From positions 1-24,349 of the IMG/VR virus record IMGVR_UViG_3300021437_000082: 24,349 bases of DNA; one strand, written 5' to 3'. This DNA comes from a virus. The translations under genes were made by a program, and so were the position numbers. How positions within the stretch are numbered: the first letter of the stretch is position 1; each line of letters starts with the position of its first letter. Below, one piece after another: positions 1 through 14,270 of this stretch. The notes under the pieces were generated by a model, which did not search any database, had not been told where the DNA came from, and saw only the letters and a list, made by a program, of their open reading frames with translations.

Positions 1-638
1 CGAGGTTCCCGGCGAAAGTATTCGACGCCCAAGGCAACCCGATGTTGCAACCCGGTCTCGTTAAGCCCGGATTCTGGATTGAGGTGTTAGGCACCGTCGA
101 GGGCAACGGCAACGCGCAAAAGCCCGGCGTGTACGTCAACCACAACATGGTCGCGTTTCGAGCGCCCGACAAGGAAATCCAAAGCGGCCCCGATCCTCGT
201 GCCGTGGGCTTCGGTCGTGCCGCGCTGCCTGCCGGTGTGACCGCTGCCCCCGTGGGTGCCGCTGCGTTCCCTGCCGCTGCTCCGGGCGTGCCAGCGAGTC
301 CCACACCTGCCGGCGTCCCAATGGGTGCCCCAGCGACTCCCGCAGCGCCTCCGGCTGCGAACGTGCCCCCAGCCACGCCAATGGCAGCGCCAACACCTGC
401 CGCAGCGGCTCCGGTGCCGGTATCGCCTTCCGCAAGCTTTATTGCCCCACCAGTGGCGGGCGCAGCACCGGGCGCGCCTATGGCCCCCGCAGCGCCTCCG
501 GCGGCAACCCTCGACCCATTGGGCGCACCGGCTGGCTATCGCATGGCAAACCCACAGGGCGCGCGTTATGAGGCGTACCGGCAAAACAACTGGACCGACG
601 CCGCTATGATCGCCGCAGGGCACATGGTGAGGCTTTGA
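1..638 (+). CDS. Phage ssDNA-binding protein, 5'-truncated (zero-frame product)
   Basis: The frame is open from base 3, so the gene begins upstream of the window; the ATG at 42 is internal. The visible N-terminal part, with KPGVYVNHNMVAFRAPDKEI then SGPDP, resembles the end of the DUF2815-like phage ssDNA-binding fold, which coats single strands at the replication fork. About 100 residues of Pro/Ala-rich low-complexity linker follow (roughly bases 217-530). The zero frame closes with a short conserved-looking end, YEAYRQNNWTDAAMIAAGHM, of a kind seen at the C-terminus of related phage proteins, then VRL and TGA at 636-638. This stop follows CTT, and the +1 frame continues to an SSB-type acidic tip (separate entry). 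It is first in a replication operon ahead of polymerase and helicase, which fits the role. Family assignment is by pattern recognition only. Confidence 0.7.
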   Translation, partial: RFPAKVFDAQGNPMLQPGLVKPGFWIEVLGTVEGNGNAQKPGVYVNHNMVAFRAPDKEIQSGPDPRAVGFGRAALPAGVTAAPVGAAAFPAAAPGVPASPTPAGVPMGAPATPAAPPAANVPPATPMAAPTPAAAAPVPVSPSASFIAPPVAGAAPGAPMAPAAPPAATLDPLGAPAGYRMANPQGARYEAYRQNNWTDAAMIAAGHMVRL

Positions 639-729
639 GGGCATCGTAAACGGTAGGTTGCCGGGGTATCTCTACCCCGGCAGCATGTACCCCTACGACC
701 CGGCGTTCGACGACGATATCCCGTTCTAA
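1..729 (+). CDS. Predicted +1 frameshift product: ssDNA-binding protein with SSB-type C-terminal tip
   Basis: If the ribosome slips +1 at CTT (633-635), it avoids the TGA at 636-638 and reads GAG at 637 onward for 30 more codons to TAA at 727-729. The added tail ends MYPYDPAFDDDIPF; FDDDIPF equals the end of E. coli SSB, whose acidic tip recruits polymerase, helicase and repair partners. The +1 frame has a stop at 628-630, so the switch can occur only between 631 and 636, exactly where CTT TGA lies. The only ATG in the tail (685) would give 14 residues and has no ribosome-binding site. The tail's stop overlaps the next gene's start as TAATG, the coupling style used throughout this genome, which suggests ribosomes do end here. 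A sequencing indel would give the same fused protein without frameshifting. Confidence 0.6.
618..639 (+). promoter_or_regulatory. Candidate +1 programmed frameshift site (CTT TGA)
   Basis: CTT TGA followed by G, at 633-639, is the shift pair of the bacterial prfB (RF2) gene: tRNA-Leu slips from CUU to UUU and the in-frame UGA is bypassed. Directly upstream, GGTGAGG (626-632) can pair with the 16S anti-Shine-Dalgarno end, and AGGG lies at 617-620. In prfB the Shine-Dalgarno-like element ends two or three bases before CUU; here GAGG abuts CTT, so spacing is not identical. The flanking base is G where prfB has C. Function is inferred. Confidence 0.55.
659..682 (+). repeat. Perfect 10-bp inverted repeat with TCTC loop
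   Basis: TGCCGGGGTA and TACCCCGGCA form a perfect 10-base-pair stem around a 4-base loop. It starts 20 bases after the TGA at 636-638, inside the +1-frame extension. No T-run follows, so an intrinsic terminator is unlikely. It could pause ribosomes, stimulate the frameshift (although farther away than usual), or stabilise mRNA ends. Only the stem is certain. Confidence 0.6.
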
Positions 730-1184
730 TGGCAAAGCAAAAATACACTTTGGAGCAACGCGAACGCCGCCGATTAAATTCGGCGGCGTGGCGTGCGCGT
801 AACAAAGAACAGCAAGCCCAATATTTTGAAACATATAACCGAGTGAATGCCGAAAAATTACGAGCCAACGCTAAAGCGCGATACGCGTCGAATCCTGAAA
901 GGTTTAAAGCAGAACAGAAAAAATATCGGCTACAGCAACGCAATGCACAACGTCGTAGAAAAGGCTTGCCCGCGCCTACAAGGCCGGAGCCAATCAATTG
1001 CGAATGTTGTCGCAAACCTTTTTTATCTCTCTCGCATCCGACGCCACACATAGATCACGATCACAATACCGGAGCTTTTCGCGGCTGGATTTGTAACCGC
1101 TGTAACACAGGACTAGGGTTGCTCGGTGATACCGTTGATGCAATTTTGTTTGCACTCGATTATCTGTTGAGTGTTCCGCGATGA
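729..1184 (+). CDS. HNH endonuclease, recombination endonuclease VII-like (copy 1)
   Basis: A 151-residue protein. The first 80 residues are basic and probably helical, likely DNA-binding. The C-terminal half is the endonuclease VII zinc/HNH module: C91xxC94, then HIDHDHNTG (107-115), RGWICNRCN (118-126) and LGLLGD. By analogy with T4 endonuclease VII, D109, H110, H112 and N126 would be catalytic, and C91/C94 with C122/C125 would bind zinc; all are present. The ATG overlaps the stop of the SSB-tail frame (TAATG), and its TGA overlaps the polymerase ATG (ATGA), so it is slotted in without breaking coupling. No separate ribosome-binding site is obvious. Probably a free-standing homing endonuclease rather than a Holliday-junction resolvase, judged from two paralogues in this window. 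Confidence 0.85.
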   Translation: MAKQKYTLEQRERRRLNSAAWRARNKEQQAQYFETYNRVNAEKLRANAKARYASNPERFKAEQKKYRLQQRNAQRRRKGLPAPTRPEPINCECCRKPFLSLSHPTPHIDHDHNTGAFRGWICNRCNTGLGLLGDTVDAILFALDYLLSVPR

Positions 1185-1648
1185 CTACGTCAGTGTTCCC
1201 TATAACAGAATACCCAACGTTTGATTTTGAGACGTACAGCGAAGCGGGCCTTGTGTGGGATAATTTACAACAGAAGTGGGGGTCGCTGCCGGGGTTGTCA
1301 GACCAAAATCGCGGACTCAAAGCAGTAGGCACGCGCAACTATGTCGAACATCACAGCTTTGAAGTGTTGTCACTCGCGTGGAATCTCAAAGACGGTAACG
1401 GCGTGCAATGGTGGCGACCACATCCGTCAATACCTTACAAATCATACCCACGTTACATGCCACTAGATCGTAACCACTTAGACGGCTATTGGTTGCATCC
1501 GTGGCACTTACTCGAACACGTTGCAGCCGGCGGACCACTCGAAGCGCACAACGTTAACTTTGAGTGGATCGTGTGGAATGTTCACTGTGTGCCGGTGTTA
1601 GGCTGGCCCCCGTTTCATTGCGACGACCAAGGCTTGCCGCCGCTCTAA
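1181..1648 (+). CDS. DNA polymerase I-type, N-terminal fragment (Exo I and Exo II motifs)
   Basis: A 155-residue fragment of a family A phage DNA polymerase. It carries 3'-5' exonuclease motif Exo I as DFETYS (D15, E17) and an Exo II-like block EAHNVNFEW (N124, F127, E128), then the conserved GWP (141-143). The frame stops after FHCDDQGLPPL, in the middle of the exonuclease domain. Exo III and the polymerase domain are encoded separately from 1836. The last five residues (GLPPL) look foreign to the family and probably belong to inserted DNA. The start is the ATG overlapping the HNH stop; the stop overlaps the next ATG as TAATG. With every junction coupled, the two halves may be made together and assemble, but an inactive exonuclease is also possible. 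Confidence 0.82.
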   Translation: MTTSVFPITEYPTFDFETYSEAGLVWDNLQQKWGSLPGLSDQNRGLKAVGTRNYVEHHSFEVLSLAWNLKDGNGVQWWRPHPSIPYKSYPRYMPLDRNHLDGYWLHPWHLLEHVAAGGPLEAHNVNFEWIVWNVHCVPVLGWPPFHCDDQGLPPL

Positions 1649-1839
1649 TGCAAGTCGTTCAATTCAATTTTTCTATTGGTCAACGCGTTAAACTTCACGC
1701 TGCCGATAATATTGACGGGGTCGTCACTGGATTATTGCGCGACTCCGAGGGGCACCAATACCGCGTAGTTTATTGGGCTGACACAACGCGAAAAGTGGAA
1801 TGGATGTTTCAACATGAACTCAAGGCCGTAGACCCATGA
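1648..1839 (+). CDS. Small SH3-like protein inserted within the DNA polymerase gene
   Basis: A 63-residue protein starting MQVVQFNFSIGQRVKL, with blocks DGVVTGLLRD, GHQYRVVYW and WMFQHEL. The pattern of a GxxV turn, GVVTG strand and YRVVYW strand is typical of small SH3/KOW-like beta-barrel proteins common in phages; no function can be assigned. It begins at TAATG with the end of the polymerase N-fragment and ends at ATGA with the C-fragment, so it lies wholly between the polymerase halves. The interrupting segment runs from about 1631 to 1835. Both edges carry a GA(C/T)CAAG heptamer (1625-1631 and about 1842-1848), which may mark the insertion boundary. No intron or endonuclease signature is visible in it. 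Confidence 0.65.
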   Translation: MQVVQFNFSIGQRVKLHAADNIDGVVTGLLRDSEGHQYRVVYWADTTRKVEWMFQHELKAVDP

Positions 1840-3695
1840 CCGATCAAGCACATTGCAGCGCCGCGAAGGCTCGCGCATCTGCATACCCCGGCGCACTTGG
1901 CGAACTCGGCGCAGTGCTGAACCTATCGCAACAAAAAGACAAAGCCGGTAGCGATCTAATTCGCAAGCTGACAATGCCGAAGAAACCCACGAAAGCAAAC
2001 CAGTCATTGCGCTGGACGCCATTCACGGCCGCCGATGACTTCGCGCGTTTTTATGAGTACAACAAGCAAGACGTGCGGACGGAAGACGAGGCAAGCTCTA
2101 AAATATACGATCTAACACCGCGCGAGCAAGATGTGTGGAAGCTTGATTTGCGTATCAACATGCGCGGCATGCAAGTCGACACCGCAGCGGTTGAAGATTG
2201 TATCGTTATCATTGAACAAGCCGAGTTGCGCTACAACAGCGAGCTGCGCGAGATAACAAACCACGCGGTGCAGAAGTCGACCGAAGTTGCAAAAATGCTC
2301 GAATGGATGCGCACACAAGGCGTTTACCTTTACGAGCTTGACGAAGACACACTTGCCGACGCATTGAAGCGCACCGACTACCCGCGCAACGTGTTGCGTG
2401 TGCTGCGTATCCGGCAAATCCTCGCGTTTGGTAGTTGCAAAAAGTATTACGCGTTTAGATCGCAGACGACATCGTCGGGCCGGCTTTACGATCAATACAC
2501 CTATTATGGCGCACACACTTCGTTGTGGAACGGTAGAGGCGTGCAGCCTGCCAACTTGTACAAGGGCGTTTTTTCAAAGCCCGAGCAAGTCGAACACGCG
2601 CTCGCAATCATCCGTTGCCGCTCTATTGAATTGCTCGAATACGAATACGGCGAGGGGTCAGCGTGGGCGCTCGATCCAAAGAACAACGGCGCGTTAGATG
2701 CCCTCGAAGTAGTTGCGAGCTGCCTGCGTTCGATGATCGTTGCCAAGGCGGGGCACCGTTTACTGTCTGCGGACTTCACCGCTATACAAGCGGTTGCAAC
2801 GTCCTGCATGGCTAATGAGCAATGGCGTATTGACGTGTTCAGAACCCACGGCAAGATTTACGAAGCGCAAGCCGCATTGCTGACGGGTAAGTCGGTCGAA
2901 GAGTACCAAGCGTTTAAGAAACAGCATGGCAAGCACCACGACGACCGGCAGCTCGGCAAGCTGGCAGTATTGTCGGCAGACTTCGGCGCGTGGGTGAATG
3001 GCTGGAAACGGTTCGGCGCTGACGATCTACTCGGTGATGACGATGCAATCAAAGCCGTGGTATTGAAGACGCGCGACGCTATCCCCAACATCGTCAAATT
3101 TTGGGGCGGCCAAACCATCAACAAGTTTAAGCACGACGAACAACAATTGTTATTCGGGCTTGAAGGCGCAGCTATCTCGGCCATCCTGCAACCCGGCGAT
3201 TGCTTCAACTCGAACCCCGGCTCGCGCCTTGGCGTTCTCTACCAAGTGCACGACGACGTGTTGTACTGCCGCCCACCCTCGGGCGGTTTCATTCGCTACC
3301 ACGCGCCACGCTTGACGCCTTCGCAACGCAACTATGCGAGCCCGTGGGAATTTGAAATGAGCTATGAGGGATTCAATAGCAACGCGACCAAGGGTAAAAT
3401 GGGTTGGTGCCGCATGTCACTATATGGCGGTGTTCAAACTCAAAATGTAATATCCCACATGTGCCGAGAGATTCAGGCCGACGCTTTATTGCGATTAGAG
3501 CGTGCAGGATATCCCGTGGTTATGCACACACACGACGAGAACGTGTGCGAAGTTCCTGACGGGTTCGGTAGTCTGGAAGAGTACAACGCCTTTATGAATA
3601 ATCTACCCGCATGGGCTATTTGCGAAGACGGCCAACCGTGGCCGGTTAAAGTTCCTGACGCGTGGGAAGCGAATCGCTACGGCAAATGGGAATAA
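1836..3695 (+). CDS. DNA polymerase I-type, C-terminal fragment (Exo III and polymerase domain)
   Basis: A 619-residue fragment that resumes the family A polymerase where the N-fragment ends: MTDQAHCSAAKARA corresponds to the family block after the GWP motif. Exo III is YNKQDVRTEDE (D79). Motif A is SADFTAIQAV (D313, Q318); the usual steric-gate Glu is Gln and the Arg two residues on is Val. Motif B is RQLGKLAVLSADFGAW (R371, K375, F383 at the usual Tyr position). Motif C is THDENV (H566, D567, E568). Both catalytic Asp residues are present, so synthesis should be possible. The ATG overlaps the small gene's stop (ATGA), and no open frame extends upstream because a TGA precedes. It would act with the helicase and ssDNA-binding protein in phage replication. 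Confidence 0.88.
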   Translation: MTDQAHCSAAKARASAYPGALGELGAVLNLSQQKDKAGSDLIRKLTMPKKPTKANQSLRWTPFTAADDFARFYEYNKQDVRTEDEASSKIYDLTPREQDVWKLDLRINMRGMQVDTAAVEDCIVIIEQAELRYNSELREITNHAVQKSTEVAKMLEWMRTQGVYLYELDEDTLADALKRTDYPRNVLRVLRIRQILAFGSCKKYYAFRSQTTSSGRLYDQYTYYGAHTSLWNGRGVQPANLYKGVFSKPEQVEHALAIIRCRSIELLEYEYGEGSAWALDPKNNGALDALEVVASCLRSMIVAKAGHRLLSADFTAIQAVATSCMANEQWRIDVFRTHGKIYEAQAALLTGKSVEEYQAFKKQHGKHHDDRQLGKLAVLSADFGAWVNGWKRFGADDLLGDDDAIKAVVLKTRDAIPNIVKFWGGQTINKFKHDEQQLLFGLEGAAISAILQPGDCFNSNPGSRLGVLYQVHDDVLYCRPPSGGFIRYHAPRLTPSQRNYASPWEFEMSYEGFNSNATKGKMGWCRMSLYGGVQTQNVISHMCREIQADALLRLERAGYPVVMHTHDENVCEVPDGFGSLEEYNAFMNNLPAWAICEDGQPWPVKVPDAWEANRYGKWE

Positions 3696-4042
3696 AAGAA
3701 CAACAGTTAAAGGCGTATCAGAAAACCTACCGCCTGCAAAATTCCGAGCGATTAAAAATAAAAGCGCTGGAATGGCAAAAGAAAAATAAGGAACACAAGC
3801 GCGCCTATGAACGTAAACGACGCGGATTGCCAGAACCCACACGCCCACGGCCTAACCGTTGCGAATTATGTAACGGCCTGCCTAACGGGCGTGGCAATTT
3901 GCATTTAGATCACGATCACGAAACCGGCGCGTTTCGCGGGTGGATTTGTTCGACTTGCAATACTGGCCTTGGCAAATTAGGCGATAATTTACAAGGGTTG
4001 CTTCGCGCTATGGATTATATTTTAGGCTTGCCGCGTAAATGA
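3686..4042 (+). CDS. HNH endonuclease, recombination endonuclease VII-like (copy 2)
   Basis: A 118-residue protein from the ATG at 3686, which lies inside the last codons of the polymerase (10-base overlap); an in-frame GTG at 3662 is a less likely start. It has a basic helical N-terminal half, then the same module as copy 1: RRGLPEPTRPRPNRCELC with C59xxC62, LHLDHDHETG with D75, H76, H78, RGWICSTCNTGLG with C88 and C91, and GDNLQGLLRAMDYILGL. Identity with copies 1 and 3 is high only in this C-terminal half. Its position directly behind the split polymerase suggests a homing nuclease acting on the polymerase region. All presumed catalytic and zinc residues are intact. Confidence 0.85.
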   Translation: MGIKEQQLKAYQKTYRLQNSERLKIKALEWQKKNKEHKRAYERKRRGLPEPTRPRPNRCELCNGLPNGRGNLHLDHDHETGAFRGWICSTCNTGLGKLGDNLQGLLRAMDYILGLPRK

Positions 4043-4059
4043 GACACGCGTCACTAGAC

Positions 4060-4079
4060 AACTGACGAGGTCGTCAGTT
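4060..4079. repeat. 20-bp palindrome in the only sizeable gap of the replication arm
   Basis: AACTGACGA GG TCGTCAGTT: nine-base arms with a two-base centre. It sits in the 73-base gap between HNH copy 2 and the next gene, where every other junction of this arm overlaps. No T-run follows, so it suits an operator or processing site better than a terminator. I could not define a promoter nearby. Confidence 0.6.
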
Positions 4080-4115
4080 AGGATTGCTCCACACTGAACG
4101 AACGGAGCCGCCCGC

Positions 4116-4364
4116 ATGAACTTCCGCACTCAACTTGCCTTAAATACCCTTAAAGCTGGCGGCTATTTCCGCAAGCAACTTGAAACGCAATACAATGGCC
4201 GCGAACAGTTTGTAATGCGTTTACGTAACGCGCAAGGTCAGTGCGTCAAAGGGGTTGGGTTCAAAACATTTCTTGAACTCGAATCACAACTAATTCGTAA
4301 AGAATGCGAGCGCAGCAGCGTGTGGGCTCAAGAATGGAAACTTAACGAAGTGGTGGCAGCATGA
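4116..4364 (+). CDS. Conserved-type small phage protein, function unknown
   Basis: An 82-residue, basic, mostly helical protein beginning MNFRTQLALNTLKAGGYFRK. I do not recognise the family. A CGGAG ribosome-binding site nine bases before the ATG supports this start, unusual here because most neighbours rely on overlap coupling. Its TGA overlaps the helicase ATG (ATGA), so it is the lead gene of a three-gene coupled unit with the helicase and the following unknown. No cysteine motif, signal peptide or membrane segment is seen. The central stretch GREQFVMRLRNAQGQCVKGVGF has a two-strand beta look with basic residues, which could contact nucleic acid; that is a guess from composition. Confidence 0.7.
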   Translation: MNFRTQLALNTLKAGGYFRKQLETQYNGREQFVMRLRNAQGQCVKGVGFKTFLELESQLIRKECERSSVWAQEWKLNEVVAA

Positions 4365-5827
4365 ATACTCGCACATGGTCGCCTTACCAACTCGATATTT
4401 TTAAATTCGTTGAATTCGGCACCGGCAACGCAATCATAAAAGCGGTTGCAGGCTCCGGCAAATCAACAACGGTCGAGGAAGCGGTTAAGCGCACCAAGGG
4501 CTCGCACGTTGTCCTAGCGTTCAACAAGTCGATTGCCGCAGCCATGAAAGGGCGCGGCGTCAATGGTCGCACGTTCCATTCGCTGACTTACTCAGCGGTG
4601 ATGCAGTTCAAAAATCAACGCGACGTTGTAGCGGACAAGCTGCGCATTCTCTGCGAGCAAAACTTGCAAGGCTCCGATTTCAAAATGTACGGCACGTTTA
4701 TCTGTCGCCTTGTCGGCCTCGGTCGTAACGCGGGCATCGGTTGCTTACATGCTGACTTGCAAGAAATGTGGCTTGCATTGATCGAATACCACGACCTCGA
4801 ACTCGACAGCGAACGCGCCACACCAGAACGCGCCGCCGAACTGGCAAGCGACTTGTTACGATGGTCTAACGAATCGCCGCTCGTGGACTTCGACGACTTG
4901 CTCTACATGGCAGTGCGTGAGGGTATCAGCCTGCCGAAGTTCGACAACGTGTTCGTTGATGAAGCCCAAGACACCAACGCGATACAGCGCGCTATCATTC
5001 GCAAGATCATGAAGCCGCGCAGCCGCCTGTTAGCTGTAGGTGACCCAGCGCAAGCAATTTACGGTTTTCGCGGTGCCGATTCCAACTCGTTGCAATTGAT
5101 TGCTGACGAGTTCGGCTGTGTAGAGTTGCCGCTAACAGTTTCCTATCGTTGCCCGACGAGCGTTGTTGCATACGCCCACAAGTGGGTAAAACACATCGAA
5201 GCCGCACCGGGCGCACCGGCCGGCGAAGTAAAAGACATTGGGCAACGTTGGAACGCCAGCACGTTTACAAGTGGCGATCTAGTGGTGTGTCGCACTACCA
5301 AGCCGCTTATTTCGTTGGTGTACTCACTCATTAAGCTGCGCGTGCCGGCCAAGATCATGGGCCGCGAAATTGGTGCGGGTCTCGTCTCGTTGATCAATCG
5401 ACTAAACGGCAAGGGCATCGACGGCCTAACCGATAAGCTGTTCACATGGAGCGCTCGCGAGCACGAGAAAGCCATCGCCAAGAAACAGGACGCGAAAGCC
5501 GAGGCCATCATCGACAAGCGCGATTGCATCATGACGTTAATCGACGCACTCGAAGAGAACGACCGCACGGTGCCGGCGCTGTGCCGTTTGATCGAGTCGT
5601 TATTCTCCGATGCCGCTGCATCCATCACGCTTGCAACGATCCACAAAGCGAAGGGGCTCGAAGGCGAGCGCGTGTTCTGGTTGAATGCGTCGCAATGCCC
5701 GGCACCGTGGGCTCGTCTTGATTGGCAACAACAGCAAGAGCGCAACTTGTGCTATGTTGCAACCACTCGCGCAAAGACTTCGTTGTTCTTGATGGACGAG
5801 CGAATTATCGCAAGAGAGGCCGCATGA
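4361..5827 (+). CDS. Superfamily 1 (UvrD/PcrA-like) DNA helicase
   Basis: A 488-residue ATP-dependent helicase with motifs in order: Q-motif-like WSPYQLDIF near the start, Walker A AGSGKST (30-36), motif Ia VVLAFNKSIA, motif II VDEAQDTN (199-206), motif III AVGDPAQAIYGFRGAD (225-240), motif IV LPLTVSYRCP (256-265), motif V TIHKAKGLEGE and motif VI YVATTRAK near the C-terminus. It is shorter than cellular UvrD (about 700 residues), consistent with a compact phage helicase with reduced 1B/2B subdomains. It would unwind duplex DNA ahead of the phage polymerase or act in recombination. The ATG overlaps the upstream stop and its own stop overlaps the next ATG. No key residue is missing. Confidence 0.95.
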   Translation: MNTRTWSPYQLDIFKFVEFGTGNAIIKAVAGSGKSTTVEEAVKRTKGSHVVLAFNKSIAAAMKGRGVNGRTFHSLTYSAVMQFKNQRDVVADKLRILCEQNLQGSDFKMYGTFICRLVGLGRNAGIGCLHADLQEMWLALIEYHDLELDSERATPERAAELASDLLRWSNESPLVDFDDLLYMAVREGISLPKFDNVFVDEAQDTNAIQRAIIRKIMKPRSRLLAVGDPAQAIYGFRGADSNSLQLIADEFGCVELPLTVSYRCPTSVVAYAHKWVKHIEAAPGAPAGEVKDIGQRWNASTFTSGDLVVCRTTKPLISLVYSLIKLRVPAKIMGREIGAGLVSLINRLNGKGIDGLTDKLFTWSAREHEKAIAKKQDAKAEAIIDKRDCIMTLIDALEENDRTVPALCRLIESLFSDAAASITLATIHKAKGLEGERVFWLNASQCPAPWARLDWQQQQERNLCYVATTRAKTSLFLMDERIIAREAA

Positions 5828-12748: not shown

Positions 12749-13962
12749 GGTGTTAGTACAACCAAGATATTTGCAGGGTCTACAGTTGGCGCTTGGTCAA
12801 TGCCGGCAGTGATTGAATTCAACGCACCGGGGCCGCTTGTGCCGATCAAGATTGACAAGATAGAAACTTCGGGGCCGATGCGCGATACAGGACCGACGAA
12901 CTTTGACGCAAGAATCAACCCACCGATGCGAATGCGCGCCGAGCTTGGATCGAGGCCGTTAAACGCCGCAACAATTGCAGCCTTGACGAGCGCGTCAATG
13001 TCGGATGGTAGCGAGGTGCTATCGGTCAGCTCTACGCGAAAGAAAATAGGCAACGGCGTCGGGCGATTGAATGTGATGTTATATGTAGGGTAAGGCGGCG
13101 TGTAACTCGTATCCGGCACAACTACCGTTGTGTTGCCGTTCATGTTGCAGCCTAAATCCTTTTTTGTATAAATCGCGTTGCCGATGTCTTGGCCTTCGCC
13201 ACCCACAACACCCACGTAGACCGAATGCGGTGCAAGCGGGTAGTTAGTCGCGCCATAGTTGACGACCGCGTCGGTAACGTTCTCAGTCACGAACACGTCG
13301 AGCACATTGTCGACGTTGAACACTGCGCCGTAAATTGCTTCCTTGGAGCCATGCGCATTCAATGCAACGCTGTTGTAGCGACGGAACTCGAACTCGGCGC
13401 GAGACTCAACAAAACGACCGAGCACGCCCGGCGCTGAGTTGTTAATCGAATCCCAACCGGGGATAGCGCGGTAAATGATGTTAAGCGTATTTGCAGGGCA
13501 TGCGACGGGGCCGTCGACAACGTTCGCAAAGCTTAAAGTAATGTTGCCTGATATCGGTATCTGCCCGCCGTCTATGCACACGTAACGGTTGCCGCTCGTG
13601 TCTTGGGCCTGTGCGCCCGCAGGTATGATCGTGCCGAAGTTGCCGCTACATTGGCACGCAACCACGGTCGGCACGCCGGGCGAACGATCTAGGAAATAGA
13701 TGCGCGCAATAGCATCTTGCATGAACCCGTCAGCGGTGTCCGGGTCCACTTGGTTGACGAACTCAGCAAACACCGCATTTGCATCGGCCACAATGGCGGC
13801 CGTGCTCGATGCGAGTTGACCTTGCGGCGTGTTTAATGCGGGGTTGAGATTGCCGCCAAAGGCTTCGTTGTAGTCTTGCTGGACGCCGGCCAGAATGGCG
13901 GCCTCTTGCGGGACTTCGAGCCCTTCGGGCGTAAACACAACAGCGGGAACGTTCGTGGTCAT
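12745..13962 (-). CDS. Baseplate J-like wedge protein
   Basis: A 405-residue baseplate wedge protein of the J/Mu gp47 family. The N-terminus has FTPEGLEVPQEAAILAGVQQ and LNTPQGQLASSTAAIV; the body has DGFMQDAIARIYFLDRSPGV and IIPAGAQAQDTSGNRYVCID, hallmarks of the family, and a C-terminal ADIDALV-like helix region with AFNGLDPSSARIRIGGL. It polymerises around the hub as the inner wedge that controls sheath contraction. Start ATG overlaps the HNH copy 3 stop (ATGA) and its own stop overlaps DUF2612. Intact by length. Confidence 0.92.
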   Translation of the reverse strand: MTTNVPAVVFTPEGLEVPQEAAILAGVQQDYNEAFGGNLNPALNTPQGQLASSTAAIVADANAVFAEFVNQVDPDTADGFMQDAIARIYFLDRSPGVPTVVACQCSGNFGTIIPAGAQAQDTSGNRYVCIDGGQIPISGNITLSFANVVDGPVACPANTLNIIYRAIPGWDSINNSAPGVLGRFVESRAEFEFRRYNSVALNAHGSKEAIYGAVFNVDNVLDVFVTENVTDAVVNYGATNYPLAPHSVYVGVVGGEGQDIGNAIYTKKDLGCNMNGNTTVVVPDTSYTPPYPTYNITFNRPTPLPIFFRVELTDSTSLPSDIDALVKAAIVAAFNGLDPSSARIRIGGLILASKFVGPVSRIGPEVSILSILIGTSGPGALNSITAGIDQAPTVDPANILVVLTP

Positions 13963-14270
13963 GACTCTTGAGCCCGTTTTAAATAAGCAACCGCTTTCAT
14001 AACTCCCGCTAGGTTATCGCCCCACCTACCAAGAATCGCATTGCATGGAACACAAAGCCAGCCACGAAACTTGCCGGTCTCGTGGTCGTGATCTAAACAC
14101 AGTTCATTGCGCTTTGGTGGCGCGCCGCATATCTCACAACCGCAAGGCGCAGGGCGCGTCGGTACTGGCAAGCCTCGATATTTTCTATCGGCAATTCGCT
14201 GCCGCCCCTCAACCTGCCGGCGTCGTTGGTAGTCGCGATTGCGCAATAATTTTTCTACAACATCGGTCAT
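13959..14270 (-). CDS. HNH endonuclease, recombination endonuclease VII-like (copy 3), within baseplate operon
   Basis: A 103-residue protein, the shortest of three paralogues. It has a basic helical N-terminus, then GLPVPTRPAPCGCEIC (zinc pair C45/C48), CLDHDHETGKFRG with D60, H61, H63, and WLCVPCNAILG with C73, C76 and N77, then GDNLAGVMKAVAYL. Copies 1 and 2 have His where this has C58, a position not catalytic in T4 endonuclease VII. The gene lies between the gp46-like and baseplate J genes, which are normally adjacent. Both borders are ATGACC, so its loss would restore a direct ATGA overlap between the flanking genes. A clean free-standing homing-type insertion. Confidence 0.88.
   Translation of the reverse strand: MTDVVEKLLRNRDYQRRRQVEGRQRIADRKYRGLPVPTRPAPCGCEICGAPPKRNELCLDHDHETGKFRGWLCVPCNAILGRWGDNLAGVMKAVAYLKRAQES

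Follow-up and report, generated by a model that had tools for sequence, protein, structure and literature searches.

Does the gene for an ssDNA-binding protein (SSB) that opens this DNA encode a single product, or two that share a body and differ at the C-terminus through a +1 frameshift at the last sense codon? The window, by which we mean the whole analyzed stretch of 24,349 bases, is a viral contig fragment whose edge truncates the gene at its 5′ end. The zero frame closes with ATG GTG AGG CTT TGA, the CTT occupying 633-635. A ribosome that slipped by one base at CTT-T would read on from GAG (637) through TTC (726) to TAA (727-729), i.e., through 30 codons that end in FDDDIPF. DDDIPF stands at the very C-terminus, immediately before TAA, and does so in the +1 frame only. 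In bacterial SSB, this tip (DDDIPF) is the docking point for many genome-maintenance proteins. As the +1 frame is itself closed by a stop at 628-630, a shift could occur only within the final codons ahead of the zero-frame stop. Inside the extension, TGCCGGGGTA (659-668) and TACCCCGGCA (673-682) pair without mismatch over 10 bp and enclose a loop of 4 bases; the window lacks a T-run after this stem, which was therefore rejected as an intrinsic terminator. The original prediction had described these elements for 618-729, and all of them are present base for base, with every coordinate right.

Features of the SSB gene and its shift site in the window (group, the genes that end in CTT-T plus stop and carry the tip in +1)
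Feature	Position	Strand	Remark
Zero-frame SSB ORF	3..638	+	C-terminal OB part, Pro/Ala-rich linker, conserved GHMVRL end; assigned by phrog_7011, relative L002, and fold
GGTGA, weak SD-like element 2 nt before CTT	626..630	+	Duplex energies; in 8/10 CTT-T genes
+1-frame stop TGA	628..630	+	Same +1 stop in L001, L019-L022, L026
CTT-T slippery sequence	633..636	+	Putative tRNA-Leu slip from CUU to UUU; kept in 10/10 group members
Zero-frame stop TGA	636..638	+	TAA or TAG in some relatives
+1 extension EGIVNGRLPGYLYPGSMYPYDPAFDDDIPF plus stop TAA	637..729	+	6/6 base changes vs L001 synonymous in +1
10-bp stem-loop, putative stimulator	659..682	+	Begins 21 nt past zero-frame stop; downstream folding z -4.1
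FDDDIPF, identical to bacterial SSB C-terminal tip	706..726	+	Tip retained by all group relatives

The gene encodes a predicted phage SSB of the T7 gp2.5/Enc34 type, which bears out its proposed identity as a phage ssDNA-binding protein. In a profile search, the zero frame matches phrog_7011 (Gp2.5-like ssDNA-binding protein) with E=2.2e-19. The Pfam PF10991 match stays below threshold (15.3 of 26 bits), and PF00436, the OB domain of bacterial SSB, has no match anywhere in the window record, so that a bacterial-type identity was rejected. The full-length relative L002 (2617-3633, 338 aa) comprises an OB domain, a Pro/Ala-rich linker, and the conserved end GHMV(R/K)L. An AlphaFold (AF2) model of the L002 domain, which is 94% identical to the window protein, was obtained with a pLDDT of 89 and displays a gp2.5-type OB fold. 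It matches Enc34 SSB with bound ssDNA (5odl; Z 15.8, rmsd 3.2 over 159) and T7 gp2.5 (1je5; Z 14.3, rmsd 3.9 over 155) as well as DUF2815 proteins, and the Enc34, DUF2815, and gp2.5 scores lie far above those of other OB proteins. Moreover, the order of DUF2800-type exonuclease, SSB, and DNA polymerase is the setting of the gp2.5/Enc34 family. The protein shares with Enc34 ORF6 and T7 gp2.5 (DUF2815, PF10991) the fold, a flexible C-terminus, and the neighboring DUF2800 exonuclease and DNA polymerase A. Known members carry their acidic tail in the zero frame (PMC5686142), whereas here the zero-frame form stops after the Pro/Ala linker and GHMVRL, the acidic tip being encoded in +1. As in bacterial SSB, FDDDIPF constitutes the last residues after a disordered linker; in contrast to bacterial SSB, it is attached to a gp2.5-type OB protein and only in the frameshifted form.

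Homologues were gathered by searches not selected for the shift site, yielding about 174 distinct genes with a complete 3′ end. The full-length L002 protein as query reached 189, the first protein query reached one phage, and window positions 1-2400, compared as DNA against the phage collection, gave no match. Nine distinct genes of the unselected set carry CTT directly before the stop and the tip in +1, and a pattern scan added L229 as the tenth member of this group of uncultured phages. The stop after CTT is TGA in the window, L001/L002, L016, L018, L019, L026, and L229, TAA in L020, and TAG in L021 and L022. CTT-T with a stop as the next codon is present in all 10 distinct genes, whose SSBs span 94% to 39% identity. 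CTT makes up 10 of the 112 Leu codons (9%) in the gene bodies of the group, yet is invariant at the site. The +1 frames end in DDDIPF, DDEIPF, DDPIPF, or ADIPY; the extensions measure 18-33 aa and are mostly unalignable in sequence, frame and tip being constant. Additionally, the upstream +1-frame stop (GG TGA), two codons before, recurs in 8/10 genes. About 150 homologues lack a tip and terminate the zero frame at this position with an ordinary stop; one of them, L214, also ends CTT TAA. The +1 tip is found in 9/10 homologues ending in CTT-T and in none of the roughly 154 remaining ones that lie outside the 9NA lineage described below (Fisher p about 5e-14, relatedness not corrected). GGNCAYATGGTGVVVCTTTRR occurs in 21 contigs: in 10, from nine distinct phages, it belongs to an SSB gene, always tipped, while the other 11 occurrences are unrelated to SSB and the tip is present in none.

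Substitutions in the extension follow the +1 frame. All six changes between the window and L001 fall on its third positions, and read in the zero frame, 0/5 changed codons are synonymous. L021 and L022 differ at +1 codon positions one, two, and three by 0/1/4 changes, and pooled close pairs place 10/11 extension changes at +1 third positions (binomial p about 1e-4). Of 163 distinct homologues whose 3′ end is complete, 19 carry the tip directly in the +1 frame and none in the +2 frame, while shuffled 3′ regions gave 1 match in 32,600; a chance origin of the +1 tip is very unlikely. Judged by this conservation, the +1 frame belongs to the SSB gene as coding sequence under selection, and the comparison shows the two coding frames to be joined at CTT-T, the switch point. 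The predicted shift from CTT-T onto the tip frame is accordingly kept in diverged relatives, with substitutions of the coding type. The homologue comparison, set beforehand as a possible refutation, came out in its favor, the +1 frame being conserved in 10/10 group members.

In a tree of the homologues, the main CTT-T clade has a support of 100/100. L026 is placed with the tipless L031 and L062, for which the site may have been lost nearby, moved by recombination, or arisen twice. L142 and L182 have DDIPF at the corresponding C-terminus in the normal frame (in L142 at 4802-4822), and one of the two lies on a Candidatus Zixiibacteriota contig. These in-frame tips indicate that an SSB-type tip belongs on the gp2.5-like protein.

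We consider the following account very probable as a whole. Some ribosomes would terminate at the TGA after CTT and release a tailless SSB ending in GHMVRL. Others would pause at the stop with peptidyl-tRNA-Leu on CUU and, by analogy with prfB, slip +1 from CUU to UUU. They would then read GAG, stay in the +1 frame, and add a flexible tail of 30 residues ending in FDDDIPF, so that one SSB gene would supply two protein forms. As the tip sequence suggests, the longer form may dock host SSB-binding proteins such as primase, PriA, RecO, RecG, Exo I, Pol III chi, and similar partners. Frameshifting would set the share of tipped subunits on the phage ssDNA, and a suitable tipped:tipless ratio would presumably benefit the phage. 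The tipless majority and tipped minority of the original prediction go further than the sequence evidence supports. Readthrough is very unlikely and was rejected, since it would stay in the zero frame, which meets further stops.

The site resembles prfB in that an in-frame stop comes right after a CTT slippery codon, in the proposed +1 slip, and in its conservation across diverged genes. In prfB, peptidyl-tRNA-Leu slips from CUU to UUU at the paused stop, a strong SD-like AGGGGG lies three nt upstream of CTT, and the stop is TGA in 98.6% of cases and never TAG (PMC12421855). In contrast, the SSB genes offer only GGTGA, which pairs in a longer register and more weakly. The duplex energies amount to -7.4 to -8.7 kcal/mol in eight genes, -5.2 in L018, and -5.9 in L016, the latter two having GGTGC in place of GGTGA, compared with -10.7 for E. 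coli prfB and an average of -4.7 +/- 1.8 for tipless homologues. Nor is the prfB stop rule (TGA or TAA, then C) followed: the window has TGAG, L021 and L022 have TAG, and the position following the stop is not always C. Moreover, the prfB shift opens the body of the gene, whereas the SSB site lies at the 3′ end and adds a tail. Of the likeness to prfB that had been claimed, CTT-T plus stop therefore stands; a strong SD-like element is lacking, and the stop can also be TAG or TAA. A folded region past the stop is predicted in 7/10 genes (z of -2.3 or lower), with differing stems, and may or may not act as a stimulator. The stem GCCGGGG/CCCCGGC is kept past the zero-frame stop in L018 and L001 with a changed loop; the stems that lie about as far downstream of the stop in other relatives are unrelated to it.

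Also comparable are the +1 shifty stops at CCC.UAG in the capsid and tail genes of Listeria phage PSA and in the tail protein genes of SPP1 and the lactococcal 936 phages (PMC5009743, PMC4759559). There, too, a phage gene shifts +1 at or near its stop and makes a long C-terminal form beside a short one. Those genes encode virion proteins, add decoration domains, and slip on proline codons, whereas here a replication SSB would gain a host-type docking peptide through CUU-U. Our search of the open-access literature, which could miss older or subscription reports, turned up no such shift in genes for SSB or other replication proteins.

A second lineage places its tip in the +1 frame as well. It includes Salmonella phage 9NA, Klebsiella phages e270.1 and Carvaje, Escherichia phage Bas82, a Sashavirus, contig L096, and Proteus, Morganella, and Tbat2_2 phages. 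Their zero frame ends in FLxGNG(Q)Y(A), and WD(D/N)IPL follows in +1. This lineage forms a clade of its own (100/98), separated from the main CTT-T clade by tipless genes, and its slip site is not CTT-T. A hop from TAC to TAC (10 nt apart in 9NA) was dropped, the repeat being absent from L096 and the Proteus phages. A UUU-C slip is less likely, as zero-frame synonymous changes do not end at TTTCT but run on until the invariant GGTAACGG is reached (ACA/ACG in L103/L102, GCA/GCT in L107/L106). Since these changes extend up to GGTAACGG, the shift more likely takes place in or after this sequence, which we regard as the candidate region. In L012, L102-L108, L011, L095, and L096, the annotated SSB has an unannotated +1 WDDIPL tail past the stop.

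Four other explanations of the locus were weighed against the two-form account. A single true frame, with one base missing or extra near 633-638, would fit with the indels that metagenome contigs can carry and with the in-frame tips of L142 and L182. Yet the same arrangement recurs in 10 distinct genes with three different stops after CTT, and one of its class is present in finished genomes of isolated phages (9NA, Carvaje, Bas82, PM-CJR). A sequencing or assembly error, and with it the single fused frame that the original prediction had named as its alternative, is excluded by the independent contigs, and we assign it a practically negligible probability. The extension could also be made as a separate small +1 peptide, unfused to SSB, through reinitiation or translational coupling, for which the window offers an in-frame TTG (658) and ATG (685). 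The extensions of L021/L022 and 9NA, however, contain no ATG, GTG, or TTG codons, the conserved element is CTT-T rather than a start codon, and L142 and L182 have their tips fused in frame, which makes this reading extremely improbable.

Two further explanations accept the slip and dispute its purpose. If the shift sensed release factor as in prfB, it would report RF2 or the state of host translation instead of setting a ratio, and 7/10 sites are indeed CTT TGA, a stop read by RF2. Against this, L021 and L022 use TAG, which is read by RF1 only, L020 uses TAA, TGAC is not conserved, and the product is an SSB and not a release factor. Autoregulation of this kind is unlikely, and setting the tipped:tipless SSB ratio is the more likely purpose on the sequence evidence. 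Alternatively, the shift could be real but vestigial, a relic between an in-frame and a lost tip with no role for two forms. The tip is absent in most homologues and hence dispensable in the family, and its role is putative. But the extension is under coding-type constraint, CTT-T is invariant across diverged genes, a simple in-frame fusion was found only twice, and the split state persists in two lineages, so that a relic seems very unlikely.

Taking both lineages together, rationing of the tip by a +1 shift might be a recurrent phage strategy with at least two origins, one in the CTT-T group and one in the 9NA lineage. Tipless and tipped SSB would then coat the phage ssDNA side by side, and no more than a set fraction of the subunits would recruit, or compete for, host SSB partners. 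We favor this wider reading only slightly over its negation. If a fixed tipped:untipped ratio is true, it would allow a direct test of how many tips are needed per coated strand, and CUU-U shifting would extend beyond prfB. For isolated phages, 9NA and Bas82 among them, the SSBs as annotated in databases may moreover lack their functional tail. Phage SSBs trigger several defense systems, namely Hna, Hachiman, Nhi, AbpAB, and Retron-Eco8 (PMC13381803).

Downstream, the TAA of the extension overlaps the next ATG as TAATG (727-731). The predicted coupled junction is confirmed as an overlap, but coupling is specific to the window phage, as its closest relatives, L001 and L002, lack at the corresponding place the gene that follows here, an endonuclease VII-like ORF (729-1184). 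For the same reason, this gene looks like an insertion. The window holds three endonuclease VII-like genes, at 729-1184, 3689-4042 (+), and 13959-14270 (-), the first two matching PF02945 and the third recognized by eye. Rfam detected no intron in the window and nothing at gathering thresholds; on 560-2000, it returned one meaningless sub-threshold match. The DNA polymerase comes in two pieces, with the break behind its exonuclease part, at 1181-1648 and 1836-3695 in the window and 4035-4538 and 5277-6629 in L002, and also in L016 and L018. The spacer length is very different in the window and L002, and the first polymerase piece ends in FHCD(D/E)QGLPPL-stop in all four.
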